DNA of 33,058 nucleotides, taken from IMG/VR virus record IMGVR_UViG_3300024255_001162, positions 1 to 33,058 of that record. One strand, 5' to 3'. This document shows, in pieces, positions 3,154 through 31,123 of this stretch. This DNA comes from a virus. The position numbers were made by a program, and so were the translations under genes. Each line of letters opens with the position of its first letter. The first letter of the stretch is position 1. Under the pieces are notes generated by a model. It saw only the letters and a program-made list of their open reading frames with translations, was not told the DNA's origin and made no database searches.

Positions 3154-4048
3154 TCTCTTTATATTCCTCTAACTGTTTGTGTATCCATACATCAATTTGT
3201 TGATGCCACTCATATGGATCGTTTGGTGCTTCTTGTAGCATTGTGCCGTATGCTTCATTTGGACATAATCCAAAGGGCCATCTAAGACTAGAACCATCTG
3301 CAAAATTAAGATTAATAGATTGGTCATCTATGCCTTCTTTCCAACTTGCTTGTATAGTAATAGGTATGTTGTTTAAACTATAAATGTCTACAGCCTTGTC
3401 GCAGACGTCGTATACGCCATCTTCTTTGTATACGCCATATGCAGTACCACTTATATTTTCTAAGTTCCATTTTTGTACCTTCCAACTTGAAAAACGTTCA
3501 AACTGATTAGGCTCTTCATCAAATAAATGTAACATAAAACAGTAAAGATGTGGAAATAAATCGTGTGCAACTCCTCCCCAAGCAAACTTACTGTTTGTAC
3601 TCCAGTTACCTGGATTAGGTATTCTGTCTTTGTTTAACCAATTTATAGTAACATCTGTGACATCATACTGCCCTGAAAACTCATCTAGTATTCCATAAGT
3701 GTCTCTATACAAATTATTCTTTACTAACATTATTTTGCTGTTAGGAAATCTATCTATAGCATCTTGCCAGTCTTGGGCACTAGGCAAACCAGGCTTCTCT
3801 ACAAAAATATTTGTAACACCTGCTTCGCCTAATTGATTTAATAATTCTAAATGGGTGTAATTAGGAGTGCAAATTACTGCCAATTCAAAATCATTATTTG
3901 AAATTGCATCATCTAAGTCCTCATAATCAGGATTAGTAAGAACATTGTGCTTGTCAACAGTTACAACATCATACCCAACCTTTTTCAGTTGTGGTAAGTA
4001 TACGTTATAACCTATGCCGCCAAGTCCTACTAATACTGCTTTAGGCAT
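3146..4048 (-). CDS. Gfo/Idh/MocA-family oxidoreductase
   Basis: The 300-aa product starts with a Rossmann fold, VLVGLGGIGYNVYLPQL (G8, G10, G13), then the family's AVICTPNYTH (about residues 57-66) and the signature FVEKPG (E84-K85-P86). This identifies an NAD(P)-dependent dehydrogenase or reductase acting on a sugar or related carbonyl compound. The C-terminal substrate domain begins near residue 115 and includes GGVAHDLFPHLYCFM, placing a histidine where this family often has its catalytic one. It overlaps both neighbours by 8 nt, so it is co-translated with the DpdA-like protein and the MDR dehydrogenase. The substrate cannot be read from sequence. Confidence 0.85.
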   Translation of the reverse strand: MPKAVLVGLGGIGYNVYLPQLKKVGYDVVTVDKHNVLTNPDYEDLDDAISNNDFELAVICTPNYTHLELLNQLGEAGVTNIFVEKPGLPSAQDWQDAIDRFPNSKIMLVKNNLYRDTYGILDEFSGQYDVTDVTINWLNKDRIPNPGNWSTNSKFAWGGVAHDLFPHLYCFMLHLFDEEPNQFERFSSWKVQKWNLENISGTAYGVYKEDGVYDVCDKAVDIYSLNNIPITIQASWKEGIDDQSINLNFADGSSLRWPFGLCPNEAYGTMLQEAPNDPYEWHQQIDVWIHKQLEEYKEND

Positions 4049-5558
4049 TTTTAAACTCTGCCTCCAGGTTTGCTAACACTTCATCATTTTCATCAAATGA
4101 ATTATCATCTGCTTCTGTAACTTCTTCCTCAAATAAACTTTGGAATAATTTGTTATTGCCATCTTTATGAGGATTATTGTTTAGTGCTTCTAAGAATAAT
4201 GTTGCTTCGTCGAGTAGTCCGTGTGGATCTTCACTAGCAAAAAGTTCTTGTACAAAAGTATTAAAGTATAGAATGTTTCTAGGAACCCATTGACTAAACT
4301 CTTTACTTTTATCACTTCTTTTAACTCTTTCCCAATTTCTCCAATCTGGTTGATACTCTTGTGTTTCTATTACTGCTAATTGATTTGCTCGTTGTACTGC
4401 TCTAATGTGCATATAAACATTGTGTATCATTAAAATACCATATGTAAAACTATCCCAACTTGTTTTACCTTCTTTACCAATTTTGTTTAACATACCTGGC
4501 TTATACCAGTTTACATCTTTTACTTTTGTTCTAAGACCAACTGGACTTTCAAACGGAAACGGTAAGTCTCCAATGTTTTCATTGTTAAGTTTGTTGTCAA
4601 AACACTTGTCCATTAAGTAACTTTGCCTGTCTGCACTTAAAATAGTTTGCGAGTAAACTAAACCGTTTGCACTACTGATAAATGGACTTGCACTATCAAA
4701 ACTAATTGTAATATTAGGATTAATTTTTCTAAGTTCTCTTTGAATTATAGTAAACATTACTGCCCAATCTAACTTACTTGTACCAAGATAATGTATCCAA
4801 TCTTTACCTTCAATATTGCCATCATCTCTCATTACAATAAGACGTTTAAGACACATCTTCATATCTCTCATATGATTACCACCCATTGCCCATCCTTCAA
4901 ATGGATAGTCTTTTACTGCGTCATACCATATACTAGCATCTTCCCAATGTGTGCCTTGCAGTACATTTAAGAATTTTGTTTTGCCTTGTCTGTGTTGTAC
5001 AAAGAAATCATTGTTATGTAATGTACATTTTAAACATTCATCAAAGTCTTTGAGTCCTGTGCGTTCCCTTAGTTCAGGCTTACTTGCCCAACTAGGTACA
5101 TCAAGTGTCATACTCCAGTCTGCTGTATGCTCTAACCAGTTTAGAATTTTATGTCTTGTTTTGTCAGCATCTCCTTTGTATCCAGGATCGCCTGGTTTCT
5201 CAAAAAAGTTCTCCCAGTCAAATTTAATAACACCTTTACCAATTTGGAAACCGCCTGAGTCTCCTAGTATCATAGTGTTATCTCTATCACGGTCCTGAAT
5301 AATGTATTCTAACTTCTTGCTTTTCTCCATATCGAGATAGGCGTGTCCTGCCGAATACAATCCCATATTATATTTGAAATAACCTTTGTCTGCGTCTAAA
5401 AAGTTTAGACCTTCAAAGCCGTGTTCGAAGCCTTCTGGAATCCTGCCATCAGGGATATAGCCTTCTATGTGTTTACATCTGCCTAGTAGTTCTGTGTAGA
5501 ACCCACTAATAGCAGGCAAATAGACTGCAAAATCACCTCTATGTTTGGATAAATCCAT
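4041..5558 (-). CDS. dpdA: TGT/DpdA-like 7-deazaguanine transglycosylase
   Basis: The 505-aa protein shows the tRNA-guanine transglycosylase barrel signature in order: ILGDSGGFQ (D100, the general-base position in TGT), TLDVPSW (151-157), NVLQGTHWED (198-207), GWAMGGNHM (222-230), HYLGTSKLDW (256-265) and SFDSASPFISSANG (286-299). In the last motif D288 aligns with the nucleophile in TGT's FDCVxPTRxARxG. The region after residue 310 has only one cysteine, so the CxCxxC...H zinc site of tRNA-modifying enzymes is missing. The extended, non-TGT C-terminus and the phage context fit DpdA, which inserts 7-deazaguanines into DNA. It sits 1 nt after gp45 and overlaps two oxidoreductases. AAGGAG precedes the ATG. 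Action on RNA is not excluded. Confidence 0.72.
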   Translation of the reverse strand: MDLSKHRGDFAVYLPAISGFYTELLGRCKHIEGYIPDGRIPEGFEHGFEGLNFLDADKGYFKYNMGLYSAGHAYLDMEKSKKLEYIIQDRDRDNTMILGDSGGFQIGKGVIKFDWENFFEKPGDPGYKGDADKTRHKILNWLEHTADWSMTLDVPSWASKPELRERTGLKDFDECLKCTLHNNDFFVQHRQGKTKFLNVLQGTHWEDASIWYDAVKDYPFEGWAMGGNHMRDMKMCLKRLIVMRDDGNIEGKDWIHYLGTSKLDWAVMFTIIQRELRKINPNITISFDSASPFISSANGLVYSQTILSADRQSYLMDKCFDNKLNNENIGDLPFPFESPVGLRTKVKDVNWYKPGMLNKIGKEGKTSWDSFTYGILMIHNVYMHIRAVQRANQLAVIETQEYQPDWRNWERVKRSDKSKEFSQWVPRNILYFNTFVQELFASEDPHGLLDEATLFLEALNNNPHKDGNNKLFQSLFEEEVTEADDNSFDENDEVLANLEAEFKNA

Positions 5559-13163: not shown

Positions 13164-13185
13164 ATCATCTCCTTTTACAAAGATG

Positions 13186-13246
13186 CGTTCCTTCGGTCTA
13201 ATTACCTACTTCCGTCGTCGCTCTACATTTAGAGTGGCGATGAACG
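13186..13246 (-). promoter_or_regulatory. Glutamine (glnA) riboswitch, proximal aptamer
   Basis: Read on the minus strand, the 61 nt form a three-stem junction. P1 is CGTTC (13246-13242) with GAACG (13190-13186). P2 is CTCTA-AATG-TAGAG, lengthened by TCG/CGA across a bulge. P3 is GGT...ACC (13206-13195). The junction strands read GACGGAAGTAG and CCGAAGGAACGC, which match the conserved core of the glnA RNA (glutamine-I riboswitch) as I remember it. It lies next to the ribosome-binding site at 13169-13174, so control of translation is likely. Confidence 0.88.
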
Positions 13247-13255
13247 AGTTCAGTA

Positions 13256-13311
13256 CGTTCCTTCGTCTTTTGACTACTTCCGTTCACTGCTACATTTAGA
13301 GTGAATGAACG
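13256..13311 (-). promoter_or_regulatory. Glutamine (glnA) riboswitch, distal aptamer
   Basis: A second copy of the same fold, 9 nt upstream of the proximal one. P1 is CGTTC (13311-13307) with GAACG (13260-13256). P2 is TTCACT-CTA-AATG-TAG-C-AGTGAA. P3 is GTC-AAAA-GAC (13274-13265). GGAAGTAG (13281-13274) and GAAGGAACG are identical to the other copy, while P2 and P3 differ in sequence but keep pairing (GTC/GAC against GGT/ACC). That is covariation supporting the structure. Tandem glnA aptamers are known in bacteria. Confidence 0.86.
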
Positions 13312-13313
13312 AG

Positions 13314-21786: not shown

Positions 21787-22257
21787 TTATACTTTCTCGA
21801 GACGTTCCATTAAACGTTCAGCACGGTTAGTAACTTGTTTGTGCCATCTTGAATCTCTACCTTCTACTGCGGCAGTTTTCCAATCTTCTTCGATAATTGC
21901 GGCGTGCATTTTCTTAAACTTACTAAGTCTTGTTCTACCCATATTGAACATCATATTAACCAAGATTTGCTGGACTTCGTCTGGTAAGTCTCCAAATACC
22001 CCTTCTTCGTATAGCAACTCACATTCACTAATTGCTGTGTCAAGGTCTTTTTCAAAACACTCTTTGACTCTTTCTTCGTCAACTGGTGTTCCAACTTCTT
22101 GTCCGTATTCCGGATCTGACTCGAGGACGAGATGGCCGACACCAAATGTTGGATACCCGAGGTGGTCCAAGTAGATTTCATTTACTACTCCTTCGTCAAT
22201 TTTTAACTGTTCAAAAACTGCTTCTCTATCTAGTTTTGTATCTTTTCCAAAAAACAT
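21787..22257 (-). CDS. T4-type lysozyme (GH24 endolysin)
   Basis: The 156-aa enzyme aligns with T4 lysozyme (164 aa). The catalytic triad is present: E22 in KIDEGVV, D31 in YLDHLGYPTFGVGH, and T37 in the same stretch, followed by GVGHL. The later helices VNMMFNMGRTRLSKF and SRWHKQVTNRAERL correspond to T4's INMVFQMGETGVAGF and SRWYNQTPNRAKRV. It hydrolyses the peptidoglycan glycan strand. There is no signal peptide, so export would need a holin. Its ATG overlaps the stop of the preceding gene (TAATG), giving translational coupling in an operon that starts at dnaJ. It could instead be a virion-associated lysozyme; size and lack of fusion domains favour a lysis enzyme. Confidence 0.93.
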   Translation of the reverse strand: MFFGKDTKLDREAVFEQLKIDEGVVNEIYLDHLGYPTFGVGHLVLESDPEYGQEVGTPVDEERVKECFEKDLDTAISECELLYEEGVFGDLPDEVQQILVNMMFNMGRTRLSKFKKMHAAIIEEDWKTAAVEGRDSRWHKQVTNRAERLMERLEKV

Positions 22258-22988
22258 TATTTCTCCTTAAAATCTGTGTATAGGACAGCCTTTGTTACTG
22301 ACTTTACTTTTGGGCCTAAACTTAAAGTAACTATTCCTAAATCTTTTTTATTATCTACATATAGAATTCTTTTTGTTCGCCAGCCTCTATAAGTGTCAGC
22401 AAAGTATTCTTTCTTACCGCATCTACCACCTAATCTTTTTAGACAAGAGGCAAATTTCTGTTTGCTAAGTTCTGAACTATCTGAACGCCTTGAATAGTAT
22501 TCTGGTGTGAATTCTATTTTATATCTATATTTATTCAACCATAGGTTAGGACGCAATGCAACATCGGTATCTTGTAGTACATCTGCTTCTAATTCCTCTC
22601 TGGGTCCACAAACACGTTTAATGAATCTATAAAAATGTTCTACAAAATCCTTAAGGTGGTCTGCTTCAGTAAACCATATAGTTCTATCTTTTTCCCATCG
22701 TTGTCTAAAAACATCGTGTCCGTGTTTAAACCAATACTCGCTATCTGAACTTCTTATTTCATTTAAAAATTTAGCAATTTTATGATGTATAGTGGTTAAT
22801 GTATGGTCTTCATTTTGATTTAGGAAAGTATCAAAATCTCCTTCTTCCTCACCTGTAATACTGTTTATTACAATTCTACTGCCGTCTATAACAACTTTAT
22901 AAGGATAATGCCCGTACTCCTTTTTATACATAGGCTCTACTGGAATAGAGTTTAAAACAAATCCCAATGGTTTAATTTGGCTAGACAA
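22257..22988 (-). CDS. Hypothetical protein, 243 aa
   Basis: The frame starts with TTG at 22988, supported by GGAGA about 10 nt upstream inside the end of clpA. No ATG is available near. The protein is charged and aromatic (YWFKHGHDVFRQRWEKD, EFTPEYYSRRSDSSELSKQK) with a basic Cys-containing segment, SCLKRLGGRCGKKEYF (about 181-196). It overlaps clpA by 8 nt and lysozyme by 1 nt. I do not recognise a family. Its fixed place between ClpA and lysozyme hints at a role in virion maturation or protein handling, but nothing direct supports that. Confidence 0.75.
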   Translation of the reverse strand: MSSQIKPLGFVLNSIPVEPMYKKEYGHYPYKVVIDGSRIVINSITGEEEGDFDTFLNQNEDHTLTTIHHKIAKFLNEIRSSDSEYWFKHGHDVFRQRWEKDRTIWFTEADHLKDFVEHFYRFIKRVCGPREELEADVLQDTDVALRPNLWLNKYRYKIEFTPEYYSRRSDSSELSKQKFASCLKRLGGRCGKKEYFADTYRGWRTKRILYVDNKKDLGIVTLSLGPKVKSVTKAVLYTDFKEK

Positions 22989-25143
22989 CTACAAAATCTC
23001 CGTCTCTATAATCTATGACGAAGTCTTTGTGTTCTGCTTCTTCGTAAATAATCTTTTTACTTAAAGGCTTCTTAACCTTTTCTTCGAACACTCTTTTAAG
23101 GGGTCTAGCACCCATTGTAGGCTCGTATCCTGCTTTGGCTAGTTCCTCTGTAGCAAGTGGAGTAAAAACAATTCTAATGTCTTTATCGTTGCCCTGTAGC
23201 AGTTCATTTGTCTCATCTATAAGCCTGTCTATAATCATATACATTTGATCCATACCCAGTTTATTAAACTTGACTACTGAATCTATTCTGTTTCTAAACT
23301 CTGGAGTAAAGAAAGTTTTAACTGCTTTAACATCTGTATCTTTCTTCTTTTGTTCTCCAAAACCTACTTTGAGTTTTTCTGCATCAGCGGCACCTAAGTT
23401 ACTTGTCATTAGCAATATCGCATTATTAAAGGAAACTGTTTTACCTGTACTACCTGTAAGTCTACCGTCGTCCATTATTTGTAACAACACATTTAATACT
23501 TCTGGTGCGGCTTTTTCTACTTCATCTAGTAGCAATACACAATTAGGATGCTTCTCTACTTCAGCAAGTAAAAGTCCTTGTCCTAGTTCACCTTCTGCGT
23601 GACCTACATATCCTGGAGGAGCACCAATCAATTTACTTACACTATGCCTTTCCATATACTCTGACATATCAAATCTTACCAACTCAACATCTAGACACTC
23701 TGAAAGTCGTTTTGCTGTTTCTGTTTTACCAACACCAGTTGGGCCTACTAATAAGAAACTACCAATGGGTTTATCGTGTTCCCTTAGTCCTGCTTTGCTA
23801 ACAAGTATGCTTTCTACCATCTTATCTATTGCATCATCTTGTCCAAACACTTTGTCTTTTATTCTAGCATCTAATGTTTTATAACTGTCTTTCTGTGATA
23901 CATCTAACATATCTTTACTTACTTTTGATATTTTAGCAACTTGCTGAAATACATTTTCCATAGACACATTAGGTACTTTATCTAATTTACTAACTGCACC
24001 TGCTTGGTCTAGTACATCAATTGCTTTGTCTGGCAATGCTTTGTTTTTGATATATTGCTCTGATAGTGTAACAATCTTTTCTATAGTGCCTTCATCATAC
24101 ATCACACCGTGGTAGTCTTCAAAGAGAGGTTGCAATCCTTTACACACTTCAATGGTGTCTGGAATATTCATTGCTTCAACTTCTAATCTTTGGAATCTAC
24201 GCATTAATGCTCTGTCTTTTTCAAAACTGTTTGCAAATTCATCTGGAGTAGTTGCACCAATAGTTTGAAGTTTGCCTTTGCCCAGTACTGGCTTTAAAAT
24301 ATTAGCAACATCTAAACTGCTACTTCCTGCACTACCGGCACCCATAATCTGATGTATCTCATCTATAAACAATATAACATCATCTCTGCCTTCTAATCCT
24401 TCCAGCACATTCTTCATACGTTCTTCAAAGTCGCCTCTAAACTTAGTACCAGCAACCATTGAGCCAATGTCTAAATTGTAAACTTGTTTGCCTTGTAATG
24501 CTTCAGGTATATCCTTGTTTACAATTCTGTAAGCAATACCTTCTGCAATAGCAGTTTTACCTGTGCCTGGTTCTCCAACTAACACACAATTATTTTTCTT
24601 ACGTCTAGCAAGTACTTCTACTACTTCTCTGACTTCTTCGTGTCTGCCAATTAGCGGATCAACACCGCCGTCTATAACTTCTTGATTTAAGTTTTTGAGG
24701 AAACTTGCATCTAGTTCGCCGTTAGCATCTTCACTAACAACTGCATTTACTAGTACTGTTCTGTTTACATTATTTGCTTGTAGGAAATAACTTGCTTGGC
24801 TTTCTTTTTCACTACACAAACTGATTAATACATCTAGTTCTGTAATTTCTTCTCTGCCTGTGAATACAACTTGCGTAAATGCTCTTTGTAAAACTCTTTC
24901 TACAGATGTTGTGGGTCTAGGTGTGCCTGTACTGCCGCCTTCACTTTTAAGTCCGTTATAGTCAGTGTTGTTTAAATATTCTTCTAAATCAGAGTCTAAT
25001 GTTTTTAGGTCACCGCCAACACCAAGGCATAACTGCCTAACCTGTTCATTTTTTAAAAGTATAAACAGAACGTGTTCCAACGTGACATATTCGTGTCCCC
25101 TGTTAGATGCTTCTGTACTTGCTGATGATACTATATGCTCCAT
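22981..25143 (-). CDS. clpA: ClpA-like AAA+ unfoldase
   Basis: The 720-aa protein has the full ClpA plan: a Clp N-domain (about 1-140, with HEYVTLEHVLFILL), D1 with Walker A GEPGTGKT (190-197) and Walker B LFIDEIH (258-264), and D2 with GPTGVGKT (467-474) and LLLDEVEK (537-544). It lacks the long ClpB coiled-coil insert. In D2, KVGFGEQ (592-598) sits where ClpA has its IGL loop that docks on ClpP, just before FFTPEFRNRID, so ClpP binding is plausible. It unfolds proteins with ATP. Phage use could be redirecting host proteolysis or helping assembly. It follows dnaJ after 22 nt. All catalytic motifs are intact, so it should be active. Confidence 0.93.
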   Translation of the reverse strand: MEHIVSSASTEASNRGHEYVTLEHVLFILLKNEQVRQLCLGVGGDLKTLDSDLEEYLNNTDYNGLKSEGGSTGTPRPTTSVERVLQRAFTQVVFTGREEITELDVLISLCSEKESQASYFLQANNVNRTVLVNAVVSEDANGELDASFLKNLNQEVIDGGVDPLIGRHEEVREVVEVLARRKKNNCVLVGEPGTGKTAIAEGIAYRIVNKDIPEALQGKQVYNLDIGSMVAGTKFRGDFEERMKNVLEGLEGRDDVILFIDEIHQIMGAGSAGSSSLDVANILKPVLGKGKLQTIGATTPDEFANSFEKDRALMRRFQRLEVEAMNIPDTIEVCKGLQPLFEDYHGVMYDEGTIEKIVTLSEQYIKNKALPDKAIDVLDQAGAVSKLDKVPNVSMENVFQQVAKISKVSKDMLDVSQKDSYKTLDARIKDKVFGQDDAIDKMVESILVSKAGLREHDKPIGSFLLVGPTGVGKTETAKRLSECLDVELVRFDMSEYMERHSVSKLIGAPPGYVGHAEGELGQGLLLAEVEKHPNCVLLLDEVEKAAPEVLNVLLQIMDDGRLTGSTGKTVSFNNAILLMTSNLGAADAEKLKVGFGEQKKKDTDVKAVKTFFTPEFRNRIDSVVKFNKLGMDQMYMIIDRLIDETNELLQGNDKDIRIVFTPLATEELAKAGYEPTMGARPLKRVFEEKVKKPLSKKIIYEEAEHKDFVIDYRDGDFVVV

Positions 25144-25165: not shown

Positions 25166-25939
25166 TTATTTGTATTCTTTAAACTGATTTCTATACTGTT
25201 CTAGTATTTCTCTTTGCTCTTGAGTGACGTTTTTAGGTATAGTAATATTTGCTATAATGTACAAATCACCTACTCTACCGTTTTGTGGATTTACAAATCC
25301 TTTTTGCGATAATCTTATTCTAGAATCGTGTTGTGTACCGGCTGGTACTTTGACTTCATAAACTTTGTTATCTAGATTTCTAATTTCTATTTTCCCACCC
25401 AGTATAGCATCTATTACATCTACACTCATTCTAGCATATAAATCATCGCCATCTCTAACAAAAGTGTCTGAACGTCTATAAGTAATTTGTACTAACAAAT
25501 CACCACCTGGCTTAAACTCTGGAAAGTTTAGACTTGCACCGTGTGGGAATCCTTGTGGTATATTAAGTTCTAATTCTTGTCCATCTACATTTATACTTTT
25601 AGTACAACCCAAATATGCTTCTTGTATATCTATTTGTACTGTTATCTGAAAACGTTGTCTGTAGTTTCTTTGTTGACCTCTGCCACCGAATATATCATTA
25701 AATGCATCACCAAATATATCACTGAATGGATTACCTCCTCCACCGAATGGACTAGGGTTATCATATGCTTGTTTCTTTTGTGGATCACTGACTGTATCGT
25801 ATGCTTCTTGGATCTTTTTGAACTGTTCAGCATCACCACCTTTGTCAGGATGATGCTTACTCGCAAGTTTGCGATATGCTTTCTTTATCTCCTGTGGAGT
25901 GGCATTTTTAGATATGCCTAGAGTTTGATAGTGATCCAT
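25166..25939 (-). CDS. dnaJ: DnaJ/CbpA-type J-domain co-chaperone
   Basis: The 257-aa protein has a J-domain (1-60) with the HPD motif (H30-P31-D32), which stimulates DnaK ATPase. A short Gly/Phe region follows (about 66-88, [14 protein letters not shown]). Two C-terminal substrate-binding beta domains carry [13 protein letters not shown] and LPQGF-like [12 protein letters not shown]. The CxxCxGxG zinc repeats are absent, so it is a CbpA-type (class B) protein, shorter than bacterial CbpA (about 306 aa). It leads an operon with clpA behind a consensus promoter, suggesting the phage supplies its own folding and unfolding helpers while using the host DnaK. Confidence 0.93.
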
Positions 25940-26699: not shown

Positions 26700-27149
26700 C
26701 TAATCTTTAGTAGAATTGAAGTCCACTGGTTTGAATTCTGTATCTGTAAAAGTTTTAGAATCATCTCCGGCTTTTGCTTGTGATTTAGGCTCGTAATATT
26801 CTTTGTATGCTTTTAGTTGTGCTACTAATCTAACAATTTGATTTCTAAGTTGTACGTTGTTTCTTTGTAGTAATTCATAATCTTCATCTGTTAAAGAAAA
26901 CAACACAGGGTCAATGTTTGCTTTTTTAAGTTCTGCAAACACTTCTTCTTGATTGCCTTCAGTAATAATTTTCCAATTTATTTGTTCTAATACTACTACT
27001 GGAGGAAGTTCTAAGTCTAACTTAACACGTTCTATCTCAGTTGTCATTACCTGTAGACCTTTTGTTGTGCTACACCCACTAATAAGGAACGTAATTAGGA
27101 TTGGCAATATTAGGGCATTCTGCATTAATTTGCGATTTCTTAGTTGCAT
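26700..27149 (-). CDS. Outer-membrane spanin lipoprotein (o-spanin, Rz1-like)
   Basis: The 149-aa product has a lipoprotein signal: MQNALILPILITFLISGCST with lipobox ISGC and lipidated Cys26. The mature part has a long helix (LLQRNNVQLRNQIVRLVAQLKAYKEYY) and a polar tail. Its start lies 71 nt inside the 3' end of the i-spanin gene in another frame, the classic Rz/Rz1 overlap. The o-spanin joins the i-spanin across the periplasm and fuses inner and outer membranes in the last lysis step. Met9 (27125) is an alternative start, leaving a signal of ordinary length. It is longer than lambda Rz1 but within the range of T4-like spanins. Confidence 0.82.
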   Translation of the reverse strand: MQLRNRKLMQNALILPILITFLISGCSTTKGLQVMTTEIERVKLDLELPPVVVLEQINWKIITEGNQEEVFAELKKANIDPVLFSLTDEDYELLQRNNVQLRNQIVRLVAQLKAYKEYYEPKSQAKAGDDSKTFTDTEFKPVDFNSTKD

Positions 27150-27564
27150 TTAATTCCTCCTCTGTTAGTGGTGAGCCTTGTGCTATTTCAAAACACCTTG
27201 CTCTTTGTTTTTCTCTTCTGCCTTCTATGATCTGTATACTTTTAGGTTTGTTTACAGCCAGGTTACCGATGTCTCTTCGTTCCCCTGAAGCATTTACTTT
27301 GTTAAATTTTTCATTAGCAACATTTAAATCTCCTACGAGTTTTTCATTTTTTGCTAATAACTCTTTATTAATATCTCTAATTTGTGCAATATCTTTAAGT
27401 TGCTGTTCAATTACTGCTTGTTGTTGTGCAACTGCACCTTCAAGTTTTTGATTGTTTAATGTCAAAATTTCGTTCTCCGATTTGAGATGTTGGACGTACA
27501 TAAGTCCCCCCATTGCACCGAGGACTGCTATACCCATTATGATTAATTTAAGTTGACTGAACAT
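27079..27564 (-). CDS. Inner-membrane spanin (i-spanin, Rz-like)
   Basis: The 161-aa protein has an N-terminal membrane anchor (about 5-24, LKLIIMGIAVLGAMGGLMYV) and then a long periplasmic coiled coil (about 25-95, SENEILTLNNQKLEGAVAQQ onward). The C-terminal region carries two cysteines (ARCFEI, AECPNI) that may form disulfides. The topology, size and overlap with a lipoprotein gene identify it as the i-spanin partner. It overlaps the acyl-carrier-like gene by 17 nt. It belongs to the late operon that starts at 29056, as expected for lysis genes. Confidence 0.82.
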   Translation of the reverse strand: MFSQLKLIIMGIAVLGAMGGLMYVQHLKSENEILTLNNQKLEGAVAQQQAVIEQQLKDIAQIRDINKELLAKNEKLVGDLNVANEKFNKVNASGERRDIGNLAVNKPKSIQIIEGRREKQRARCFEIAQGSPLTEEELNATKKSQINAECPNIANPNYVPY

Positions 27565-27775
27565 TGGACTCTACTAATTTAATAAGGTCGCCCACAGTCT
27601 TAATATCTAGAATTGCTTCTTCGTCTAAAGAAATGTTTAGTTTTTCATCTAATATAATGCTGACTTCAACTAAGTCGTATTCATCTGCATTTAGTTCGTC
27701 TACAAGATTTGTATTATCTTCAAATGTTTTATCACCGAAATGGTCTTTTAAAACTTCTAGTACTGTGTCTCTCAT
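27548..27775 (-). CDS. Acyl carrier protein-like, lacking the attachment serine
   Basis: The 75-aa acidic protein matches acyl carrier proteins (about 77 aa) along its length: VLEVLKDHFGD, LVDELNADEYDLVEVSIILD, LDEEAILDIKTVGDLIKLV. In a functional ACP the central motif is GADSLDxVE, whose Ser carries 4'-phosphopantetheine. Here the codons read Ala-Asp-Glu-Tyr-Asp, so the Ser is Glu and the prosthetic group cannot attach. It may be a structural adaptor, a decoy for host fatty-acid or lipid A enzymes, or a regulator. It lies between the 254-aa protein (ATGA overlap of 4 nt) and the i-spanin. Confidence 0.82.
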   Translation of the reverse strand: MRDTVLEVLKDHFGDKTFEDNTNLVDELNADEYDLVEVSIILDEKLNISLDEEAILDIKTVGDLIKLVESNVQST

Positions 27776-28536
27776 TTTCTTCTCAAGGTTAATATGTTAT
27801 TGGAACCAGTTTTACTTATTGCTACAACATCTGTGCTAAGTTTGTTAACAGACCAATGCCTGCCCAAACTGTGTTGAAGTTTATTATCTTCTATGCTGTT
27901 TACTAATATTGGTTTTTGTGCATACTCGTCTAAGACTTCTTTACCAAAGTTAAGCATTTCAAATTTTTGTACACCGTTTGAAGATGAGAATTCTAAAATT
28001 TTATTTTCTATTCCTAACTTGTTTATATAACTGTCTTTTATAAAGTTTACTACATCTAGTTTTTCTTGTTCCACTTTTTTACTTTCCTGTGCTTTTGTAA
28101 ATTCTTCTTTGGTCATATATTGTGACGGATCTTGTATAATAAATGAACCTAATGCTGGATCACTAATACTGTATGACTCTTCTGCAAAATAACTTTTAAC
28201 CTTGTAGTTGTTTAACCCTACTAAGTTTTCAATATCTTCTACTATGCCTTTTAACTTATCCATAAAATCTTCATCTCTTTTCATTTCAATAAAAATTAAA
28301 TGATGACCGTCATCATCTGGATTTGGAGATGTTTCAACATCTAGTGTTTCGTATGCACCTGTCTCAATAAATTGTGTTAAATCTTCTGCTGGTGCTTTTT
28401 CTGTCATATAGAAAGCAGTAACAATAACATCTTTTGCTTCGCCTGTCTTTGGGTTAAATTCGTCTATACTAATCTTGGGGACTACTAAATCTTTTAAGTC
28501 ACCGTTTTGTAAAGAATATCTACTGTCCAATGGCAC
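27772..28536 (-). CDS. Conserved phage protein, 254 aa, possible virion component
   Basis: Start is GTG at 28536 with AAGGAG 6 nt upstream, inside the end of the preceding gene (17-nt overlap). The protein begins MPLDSRYSLQNGDLKDLVVP and is acidic and mixed alpha/beta. A helical middle (about 145-170, KEEFTKAQESKKVEQEKLDV) divides two domains. The end, ALGRHWSVN-like LGRHWSVNKLSTDVVAISK, looks like a beta domain. I recall similar genes paired with the next one (183-aa type) in marine T4-like phages, but cannot name a function. A late promoter controls the operon, favouring an assembly or structural role. Confidence 0.75.
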   Translation of the reverse strand: MPLDSRYSLQNGDLKDLVVPKISIDEFNPKTGEAKDVIVTAFYMTEKAPAEDLTQFIETGAYETLDVETSPNPDDDGHHLIFIEMKRDEDFMDKLKGIVEDIENLVGLNNYKVKSYFAEESYSISDPALGSFIIQDPSQYMTKEEFTKAQESKKVEQEKLDVVNFIKDSYINKLGIENKILEFSSSNGVQKFEMLNFGKEVLDEYAQKPILVNSIEDNKLQHSLGRHWSVNKLSTDVVAISKTGSNNILTLRRK

Positions 28537-29241: not shown

Positions 29242-30003
29242 ATGTCCAGAAAATCACGCAAGAACAGAGAATTCAAAAAAAGAGTTCGTAAATTTTATAA
29301 CCAAGGAGATACTTTAAGTATGCAAAATTATAACCACGTAGCATTATCGACAGCGAATGTCGTAGTAGTGCCAAAAACAATTACCCAAGATAAGTTAGTA
29401 GCAGATATACAAGACACGGCAAAAGACATCGTGTTAGCAATTGGACCTGCGGGAACGGGTAAAACGTATTTGGCGACAAAGAGTGCTATCAAGGCGTTTG
29501 TGTCCAAGGAAGTTAGTAAAATAGTGATTACGAGACCAGCAGTCTCCGTAGATGAGCAACACGGATTCTTACCAGGCAATCTGGTAGAGAAAATGGCTCC
29601 GTGGACCAGACCAATATTCGATGTGTTCGAAGAACATTTCAATCTAAAAGAAATTGAATATATGCTAGAGATGGGCAAAATAGAAGTTGCACCATTGGCA
29701 TATATGAGAGGTAGAACTTTTAAAAACACATTTATTATTGCTGATGAGATGCAGAATGCAACACCTTCTCAATTTAAAATGCTTATGACAAGAATAGGTA
29801 ACGGTAGTAAAATGATTGTTACTGGTGACTTAGAACAGCACGACAGAGGTTTTGAACAAAATGGTTTAAAAGACTTTTGTAATAGATTAAGAGGTTCAGC
29901 AACAAATAAGATTAGTTTGATTGAATTTGATGCTAGAGATATTAAACGACACCCTGTGATAGAAGATGTGCTTAGTCTGTATCACACAGAAGTCGTAGAA
30001 TAA
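29242..30003 (+). CDS. phoH: PhoH-like ATPase
   Basis: The 253-aa protein has a PhoH-family P-loop, GPAGTGKTYLA (about 69-79), the ITRPAVSVDEQHGFLPG block (about 98-114), Walker B FIIADEMQNATPSQFKMLMTRIG (about 149-171), and MIVTGDLEQHDR. These are the full PhoH signature of a cytoplasmic ATPase, often linked to RNA metabolism; its role in phage is not settled. The N-terminal 20 residues are very basic (SRKSRKNREFKKRVRKF), suggesting nucleic-acid contact. ATG 29242 has AAGGAG 7 nt upstream, better than the later Met27. It is one of the few plus-strand genes here. Its 3' end overlaps the minus-strand 71-aa gene by 32 nt. Confidence 0.95.
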   Translation: MSRKSRKNREFKKRVRKFYNQGDTLSMQNYNHVALSTANVVVVPKTITQDKLVADIQDTAKDIVLAIGPAGTGKTYLATKSAIKAFVSKEVSKIVITRPAVSVDEQHGFLPGNLVEKMAPWTRPIFDVFEEHFNLKEIEYMLEMGKIEVAPLAYMRGRTFKNTFIIADEMQNATPSQFKMLMTRIGNGSKMIVTGDLEQHDRGFEQNGLKDFCNRLRGSATNKISLIEFDARDIKRHPVIEDVLSLYHTEVVE

Positions 30004-30222: not shown

Positions 30223-30768
30223 ATGATAAAAGAACTCAATAACAATATAGACTGTGATAAGATAGTAGAAGCATACAAACTTATAGAAGACAAGTTTGAT
30301 TTATCTAATCCTTTTCCAGCAGTAAGTATAACCAGTTTAGATGGTGAAGATGATTGGACATACTCCACACAAAAAACTGCTGACTTGTCTGTACAAGAGT
30401 CACAACTCAACGTACTAAACAAAAGTCTTAAAGGAACTTATTACGAAGATTTAATTTCACAATATCCAGAGTATTACAGATGGAGAGTATTGTGTATTCC
30501 GGGCAAACGTATATACAATGTACATCAAGATTCAAAGCCTAATCAAGGCAATGTGTCAAACATAAGAGTACATATACCTATGGTTACAAATGAACAATGT
30601 TTCTTTCAATTTTGGAATGGTAGACCTGAAGCAAATACACAAAGTATTGTTAGGTCATATCATATGGAAGTTGGGAAGGCATATGAAGTTAATACTTCAA
30701 ATTATCATTCTGCTGTGAATTTTGGTACTGAGTTTAGATACCACTTGATAGGTGTGAAATACGTTTAA
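30223..30768 (+). CDS. Aspartyl/asparaginyl beta-hydroxylase-like 2OG-Fe(II) oxygenase
   Basis: I start at ATG 30223 (MIKELNNNIDCDK, 181 aa). An in-frame TTG at 30166 would add residues that overlap the divergent 71-aa gene and look non-coding. The catalytic core is clear: IYNVHQDSKPNQG with iron ligands H101 and D103, IRVHIPMVTNEQCFFQF, then NYHSAVNFGTEFRYHLIG with ligand H162 and the 2-oxoglutarate arginine R172. The HxD...RxHIP...HxxxN...RxH order matches the Asp/Asn/Pro hydroxylase fold (PF05118 type). It would hydroxylate a protein side chain or amino acid using 2-oxoglutarate and oxygen. It converges with sufE, overlapping by 35 nt. Confidence 0.85.
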   Translation: MIKELNNNIDCDKIVEAYKLIEDKFDLSNPFPAVSITSLDGEDDWTYSTQKTADLSVQESQLNVLNKSLKGTYYEDLISQYPEYYRWRVLCIPGKRIYNVHQDSKPNQGNVSNIRVHIPMVTNEQCFFQFWNGRPEANTQSIVRSYHMEVGKAYEVNTSNYHSAVNFGTEFRYHLIGVKYV

Positions 30769-31123
30769 AAGCAGACTCCAAACCTGTTTGTCTTTGCATA
30801 GTAATCTTATTCCCAAAAGGCAATTGACTCATAAAAACGTCAAAGTCATTTTCATTAAAAACTTTTTCATCTTGAAATCTTACTAGCAAAATATGTAGTA
30901 GTCCTCCTACTAATTTGCTTTCTGTAAAGAATGTAAACCGTTTAGATATTTCATCTTTGTAACACCAAACTTTACTTTGACAGCCATACACTCTGTATTC
31001 GTCTGTACATCTAGTTTGGTCAAACTGAGGAAGACAATCTGACAAACTCATTATAAATTCGTACTTGTCTAAATCTTCCTCTAATATTTCTAACGTGTCT
31101 TTGATTTCTTCGAAGTTATTCAC
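30734..31123 (-). CDS. sufE: SufE-like sulfur-acceptor protein
   Basis: The 129-aa protein matches SufE (138 aa in E. coli). KYEFIMSLSDCLPQFDQTRC corresponds to SufE's RYExLIELGRKLPPL. The sulfur-accepting cysteine C48 is in EYRVYGCQSKVW, matching ENRVPGCQSQVW. The end, MQRQTGLESAFKRI, resembles SufE's PSRSNGLxAMxxRI. SufE takes sulfane sulfur from SufS and delivers it for Fe-S cluster assembly. No SufS or scaffold gene is in the window, so it would act with host partners. Its start overlaps the upstream 71-aa gene by 8 nt. Confidence 0.92.
   Translation of the reverse strand: MNNFEEIKDTLEILEEDLDKYEFIMSLSDCLPQFDQTRCTDEYRVYGCQSKVWCYKDEISKRFTFFTESKLVGGLLHILLVRFQDEKVFNENDFDVFMSQLPFGNKITMQRQTGLESAFKRISHLSSGI

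Follow-up and report, generated by a model that had tools for sequence, protein, structure and literature searches.

Conserved acidic residues at the phosphopantetheine serine position of an acyl-carrier-protein-like gene in a predicted phage lysis cassette

An acyl carrier protein (ACP)-like gene of a marine phage encodes glutamate at the position of the serine that normally receives phosphopantetheine, and every relative found at the same locus encodes glutamate or aspartate there. The gene was analyzed in its whole context, a stretch of 33,058 nucleotides (the IMG/VR virus record IMGVR_UViG_3300024255_001162), hereafter called the window. At the level of sequence, it is established that the attachment chemistry has been lost and that the fold and the recognition residues have been kept. 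The protein has the predicted ACP fold, lacks the chemical feature by which functional ACPs are defined, and is nevertheless conserved in a lysis cassette. We propose that the protein probably acts by binding host or phage proteins and not by carrying fatty acids.

The gene, its motif, and its neighbors

The open reading frame comprises 75 codons on the minus strand; over the same interval, the plus strand is interrupted by many stop codons (Table 1). The codons GAT GAA TAC encode Asp31-Glu32-Tyr33, whose counterpart in E. coli AcpP is Asp35-Ser36-Leu37; the DSL motif does read DEY, as a preliminary description made from the DNA letters had stated. The residue after the attachment place is Tyr or Phe in these phage proteins, versus Leu in AcpP.

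Several profile searches point to an ACP. PHROG 5934, annotated "acyl carrier protein," matches the window protein at 2e-6, while the NCBIfam models PRK08172 (3e-9) and TIGR00517 (1.1e-6) match it below their cut-offs. The Pfam PP-binding match (7.8e-4; 20.1 bits) falls just below the cut-off of 20.8 bits, which a relative, L003, clears with 29.3 bits. An AlphaFold2 model built from three sequences (mean pLDDT, 84.6) is predicted to adopt the four-helix ACP fold, and the PDB matches listed by Foldseek for this model are ACPs, with TM(query) values of about 0.75 to 0.87. The earlier claim of a well-kept ACP fold agrees with the model and its structural matches. A tblastn search with the protein gave weak ACP matches and nothing more, and megablast found no close named phage. 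Comparison of the window and L003 copies (dN of 0.164 and dS of 0.605 by NG86; one pair) indicates that the gene is under purifying selection. Such selection, together with retention of the same locus in 28 other contigs, argues that the reading frame is not due to chance.

Table 1. Features of the window discussed in the text
Feature	Coordinates	Strand	Evidence
Ser-less ACP-like gene (75 aa)	27548..27775	-	Profile searches, AlphaFold2/Foldseek, same-locus relatives
GAA codon, Glu32 at the phosphopantetheine serine place (E. coli Ser36)	27680..27682	-	
Virion structural (neck/head) protein, gp188-like of phage PA5oct, upstream	27772..28536	-	PHROG 13138, 1.9e-25; tblastn matches in jumbo phages, PA5oct included
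Virion structural protein, gp189-like of phage PA5oct	28520..29071	-	PHROG 12928, 1.1e-38; tblastn
i-spanin (Rz-like)	27079..27564	-	PHROG 739, 5.8e-10
o-spanin (Rz1-like lipoprotein), overlaps i-spanin gene	26700..27149	-	PHROG 812, 3.8e-7
PhoH-like ATPase, conserved flank, opposite strand	29242..30003	+	Locus layout
DnaJ-like chaperone, conserved flank	25166..25939	-	Locus layout
ClpA-like ATPase, conserved flank	22981..25143	-	Locus layout
T4-type lysozyme	21787..22257	-	PF00959, 2.6e-9
SufE homologue	30734..31123	-	PF02657, 1.4e-17

The gene is tightly packed between its neighbors. Its start overlaps the gp188-like gene by 4 nt, and the i-spanin gene begins 17 nt inside it. Spanins therefore do adjoin the ACP gene, as the preliminary description had noted, and from the neighbors we infer that it belongs to a late operon. 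The proteins encoded beside it match those of jumbo myoviruses, and PhoH (on the opposite strand), gp189, gp188, DnaJ, and ClpA come in the same order as in Pseudomonas phage PA5oct. In the window, the interval from gp188 to DnaJ holds ACP, i-spanin, o-spanin, and a 234-aa protein. An ACP orthologue was sought in PA5oct, Phosso, RaK2, and Atu_ph07, as well as in seven more distant environmental relatives, and no convincing match was found in any of them. In two environmental relatives, L012 and L013, the gene order places spanins in the equivalent position without an ACP.

Other features of these contigs were recorded along the way. L012 encodes a phage translation initiation factor IF-1 (L012:7325-7543; 3.2e-23) directly before the i-spanin, the place occupied by ACP in the window. 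An IscU gene (NifU_N, 3e-40) lies at L115:4175-4594 on the minus strand, and phage IscU adjoins the o-spanin in relatives. The window itself carries a tandem pair of glutamine riboswitch aptamers (13182-13313, minus strand), each over the gathering score, and a 505-aa protein (4041-5558, minus strand) that by eye resembles tRNA-guanine transglycosylase/DpdA, with a GDSGGFQ stretch and no Pfam match.

Acidic residues and gene order in same-locus relatives

Among the first three relatives, the motif was DEY in two and DEF in one. For a wider sample, IMG/VR was searched with a natural alignment of the C-terminal part alone, which starts past the Ser position and is therefore blind to the residue there. 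This search returned 29 loci, of which 28 share the gene order of the window, namely, PhoH, gp189, gp188, ACP, and i-spanin, with o-spanin, DnaJ, and ClpA where the contig allows. At the Ser place, Glu occurs in 17 of the 28 and Asp in 11, with no Ser and no other residue. The 29th locus, L255, has other neighbors and the motif DSLD.

The preliminary description had suggested that homologues be collected to see whether Glu is conserved, and had reasoned that Ser in them would imply a sequencing error or a single decayed copy. What is kept is an acidic residue, in the form of either Glu or Asp, and Ser did not occur. A sequencing error or lone decayed copy is ruled out by the 28 same-locus relatives. 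Modification of a nearby Ser had been raised as well, but no replacement Ser is conserved near the motif: the position of the window's nearest downstream Ser is occupied by Ser, Ala, or Thr in the relatives.

The codons at the Ser place are GAA in 11 relatives, GAG in 6, GAC in 8, and GAT in 3, so that both synonymous changes and exchanges between Glu and Asp have taken place. With the Ser-place column left out of the tree, at least 5 Glu/Asp changes are required within the same-locus clade, and even near-identical proteins can differ at this position (Glu in L231 and Asp in L235). This interchange implies that an acidic side chain is required but that Glu itself is not, and, in these sequences, the acceptance of Asp for Glu points to charge as the feature kept. 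All 19 distinct sequences keep the helix II equivalents of E. coli Asp35, Asp38, and Glu41 unchanged. The helix II acids E47/E48 and D56 are partly kept in the sister group, and so not every ACP partner need bind.

The surroundings of the gene are equally regular. In the 28 relatives, ACP lies between a neck/structural gene or an endolysin on one side and the Rz/Rz1 spanins on the other; an i-spanin follows it without exception, and in half of the loci (14/28) the ACP stop codon overlaps the i-spanin start codon by 1 nt. In the larger sister group, an endolysin (PHROG 315, 6.6e-50) is followed by ACP, i-spanin (PHROG 739), and o-spanin (PHROG 812). Of 25 sister-group loci, 20 have a recognized endolysin upstream in the cassette, in some cases separated from ACP by a small ORF; 2 of the others are cut by contig ends, and 3 have another ORF at the endolysin place. 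In the window's own group, the lysozyme gene is elsewhere and not before ACP. Judged by gene order, the conserved place of the ACP gene is inside the lysis cassette.

Ser-less ACPs beyond the window phage

As read from motifs, the change from Ser to an acidic residue belongs to a wider class of phage ACPs. Among Ackermannviridae ACPs, Glu was present in the first five that were read and in 9 of 9 recovered by the blind C-terminal search; 270 phage records match the Ackermannviridae ACP, and the residue was read in a subset of them. An ACP-like domain at the N terminus of rIIB in some Aeromonas phages carries Glu in ZPAH1 (L042:780-1732) and Asp in CC2 (L049) and AS-zj (L050). A search with the Glu motif returned 40 IMG/VR loci in several genome contexts, and 18 bacterial loci have the Glu form, some of them fused to large proteins.

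Nevertheless, most other phage ACPs keep Ser: a census of 80 AcpP-like loci, collected with patterns that leave out the Ser position, counted 77 with Ser, 2 with Glu, and 1 with Ala. Glu/Asp ACPs are thus the less common kind and have become fixed in particular lineages. On the best tree, 9 Ser/acidic changes are needed, while a single acidic clade has an AU p of 0.48 (85 columns, with few supported forks). We do not claim many independent origins of Glu, since the best tree suggests several and one origin is not rejected.

Several loci are of interest in their own right. In one phage (L093:2980-3553), a Ser-ACP gene comes immediately after a Glu-ACP gene, an apparent pair of uncharged and chargeable forms. 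In another phage group (L094-L096), a Glu-ACP with the motif DEFD is encoded between virion structural and tail-sheath genes. Two more phage ACPs are Ser-less: that of Vibrio phage 277E43-1 (L037:795-1328) has Asn in place of Ser, and that of L148 has Ala. Bacterial Glu-ACPs (L220, L213, L219, L216, and L211) take several forms: an RHS-repeat-like protein of Sphingobacterium bears a pair of nearly identical copies at its C terminus, a 902-aa gammaproteobacterial protein encoded two genes before a TIR-like protein has one close to its C terminus, and a Lachnospiraceae protein encoded near a dynamin-like GTPase has one as its C-terminal domain (neighbors named by eye). There are also single-domain bacterial Glu-ACPs with signal-peptide-like starts.

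If Glu holds across the 270 Ackermannviridae-type records, annotation of these proteins under fatty-acid metabolism is probably misleading. Cultured phages share the acidic change, which makes the question testable now.

Possible functions and likeness to known systems

Recognition residues that are kept around an attachment site that is always acidic argue for a selected, non-carrier function through protein contacts. The sequences make a nonchargeable protein that works by interaction likely. The preliminary description had suggested a decoy, an adaptor, or a regulator of host lipid enzymes. The loss of Ser from a protein that keeps its fold and recognition residues favors such roles over decay; a lipid-enzyme target, such as PlsB, is the least certain step and is one that we infer. 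Few bacterial proteins are more abundant than ACP, which is a hub with many partners. If the protein is indeed a dedicated nonchargeable phage ACP, it would serve this hub as a natural adaptor or inhibit it competitively, and it could be used directly to find out on which ACP partner phage replication or lysis depends.

Our preferred explanation, put forward tentatively, is that the protein is a never-charged ACP mimic, made at lysis, that blocks host enzymes of envelope lipid synthesis. Holo-ACP carries a phosphodiester at exactly the Ser atom in question, and Glu or Asp in place of a modified Ser commonly mimics phosphate, albeit imperfectly. By analogy, the acidic residue may be a phosphate mimic of holo-ACP. 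The protein would have no thiol and no acyl chain, its Glu or Asp side chain would sit at the phosphate position of a phosphopantetheine arm, and partners would, on account of this residue, see it as holo-ACP. Because the genes overlap, it would probably be translated along with the spanins at lysis time. It would then occupy the ACP docking site of envelope enzymes that use acyl-ACP, with PlsB as the first candidate and LpxA/LpxD as others, and a halt in the supply of phospholipid or lipid A would favor failure of the outer membrane when the spanins act.

Precedent comes from E. coli: when apo-ACP is in excess, glycerol-3-phosphate acyltransferase is strongly inhibited and the cells cease to grow (Keating et al. 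1995, as covered in the review PMC3896788). A phage ACP that stays uncharged and is produced at lysis could therefore shut down envelope lipid synthesis. The case against a holo-ACP mimic acting on lipid enzymes is that apo-ACP is not bound by SpoT (PMC3896788) and that an S36T ACP loses IscS (PMC13343975); several known partners thus want the arm. Also, the order of genes in the cassette may stem from compact late transcription instead of a common function. A broader form of the explanation, which we regard as more doubtful, is that phages use widespread uncharged ACPs with an acidic "phosphate mimic" to take host ACP docking sites and that one lineage built these into its lysis cassette as an envelope-weakening step beside endolysin and spanins.

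The strict i-spanin neighborhood in all 28 relatives, with its frequent overlaps, could instead reflect a partner in lysis itself, that is, a small acidic adaptor of ACP fold that binds i-spanin or endolysin and controls folding, timing, or localization. A Ser-type ACP that adjoins a spanin in Serratia phage BF, the fusion of an acidic ACP domain to the lysis-inhibition protein rIIB in Aeromonas phages, and the occurrence of bacterial Glu-ACPs as fused modules would all suit such an adaptor. We consider it unlikely, however, given that Ackermannviridae Glu-ACPs adjoin a vWA-domain protein and not spanins, that those of L094-L096 lie among virion genes, and that the window ACP has no signal sequence, whereas the soluble part of the i-spanin is periplasmic. 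If the protein were a minor part of the neck or tail, or helped in its assembly, this would account for the position in L094-L096 and for the virion structural genes upstream of ACP. ACP peptides have been detected by mass spectrometry in Eneladusvirus phages (PMC7760394) and in Sajous1, a Vi01-like phage (PMC10892097). Yet the Sajous1 evidence is a single peptide count, virion preparations are contaminated by abundant soluble proteins, and related jumbo phages have the same structural genes without ACP; a virion role therefore seems improbable to us.

Redirection of host sulfur or Fe-S assembly, by docking on IscS (or SufS) in concert with a phage SufE or IscU, has a similarly low standing. 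SufE is encoded in the window, in its three nearest relatives, and in one more contig, and IscU is encoded in four others; this gives 9 of 22 contigs, which are fragments. Asp35 and Asp38, whose equivalents are invariant in the same-locus phage ACPs, mediate binding of E. coli ACP to IscS, but the arm-less S36T ACP lost that binding (PMC13343975). Moreover, 13 of the 22 contigs, fragments as they are, have neither gene, and where SufE or IscU genes do occur, they lie outside the ACP operon. Even less probable is a divalent-cation site in which Glu or Asp joins Asp35 and Asp38 and stabilizes a repurposed helical bundle without partner mimicry. The position is flanked by two invariant Asp residues and accepts both acids, as such a site would allow, but the kept recognition helix and the lysis neighborhood would be left unexplained. 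Finally, loss of the catalytic residue is what drift of a horizontally acquired ACP after loss of function would produce, but we find this very hard to credit in view of purifying selection, intact reading frames and predicted structure, and 28 same-locus relatives with acidic residues only.

The mimic that we favor can be set beside several known proteins. Bacterial AcpP (PF00550, TIGR00517) is alike in length, in predicted four-helix fold (TM of about 0.8), in the D35/D38/E41 equivalents, and in net charge (-14 for the window protein versus -15 for E. coli AcpP); it differs in keeping Ser, whereas the phage protein, with Glu or Asp, is predicted not to be phosphopantetheinylated by the normal route. 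No description of a conserved acidic substitution in ACPs was found in the open-licence literature searched. The Ackermannviridae ACPs (Ag3 gp126, Det7 gp45, and those of Kuttervirus and relatives) share the change from Ser to Glu, in a GGDELD motif, and open-licence papers on these phages yielded no comment on it. In contrast to the window protein, they are about 107 to 113 aa long with an N-terminal extension, have Leu after Glu, and are encoded beside a vWA-domain gene outside a spanin cassette.

The Eneladusvirus ACPs (Serratia phage BF gp158 and those of Erwinia SNUABM phages) are likewise jumbo-phage ACPs encoded directly before an Rz-like spanin, an arrangement that has already been noted, along with ACP in mass spectrometry of phage proteins (PMC7760394). 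Serratia phage BF gp158, however, keeps Ser (DSLD), is longer, and has another genome position. The rIIB domain of Aeromonas phages ZPAH1, CC2, and AS-zj likewise has the acidic residue but is fused to rIIB and is not a free protein. A likeness in proposed action is to E. coli apo-ACP as an inhibitor of growth and PlsB, in which an uncharged ACP would occupy acyl-ACP sites, although that is an overproduced host protein and not a dedicated phage product.
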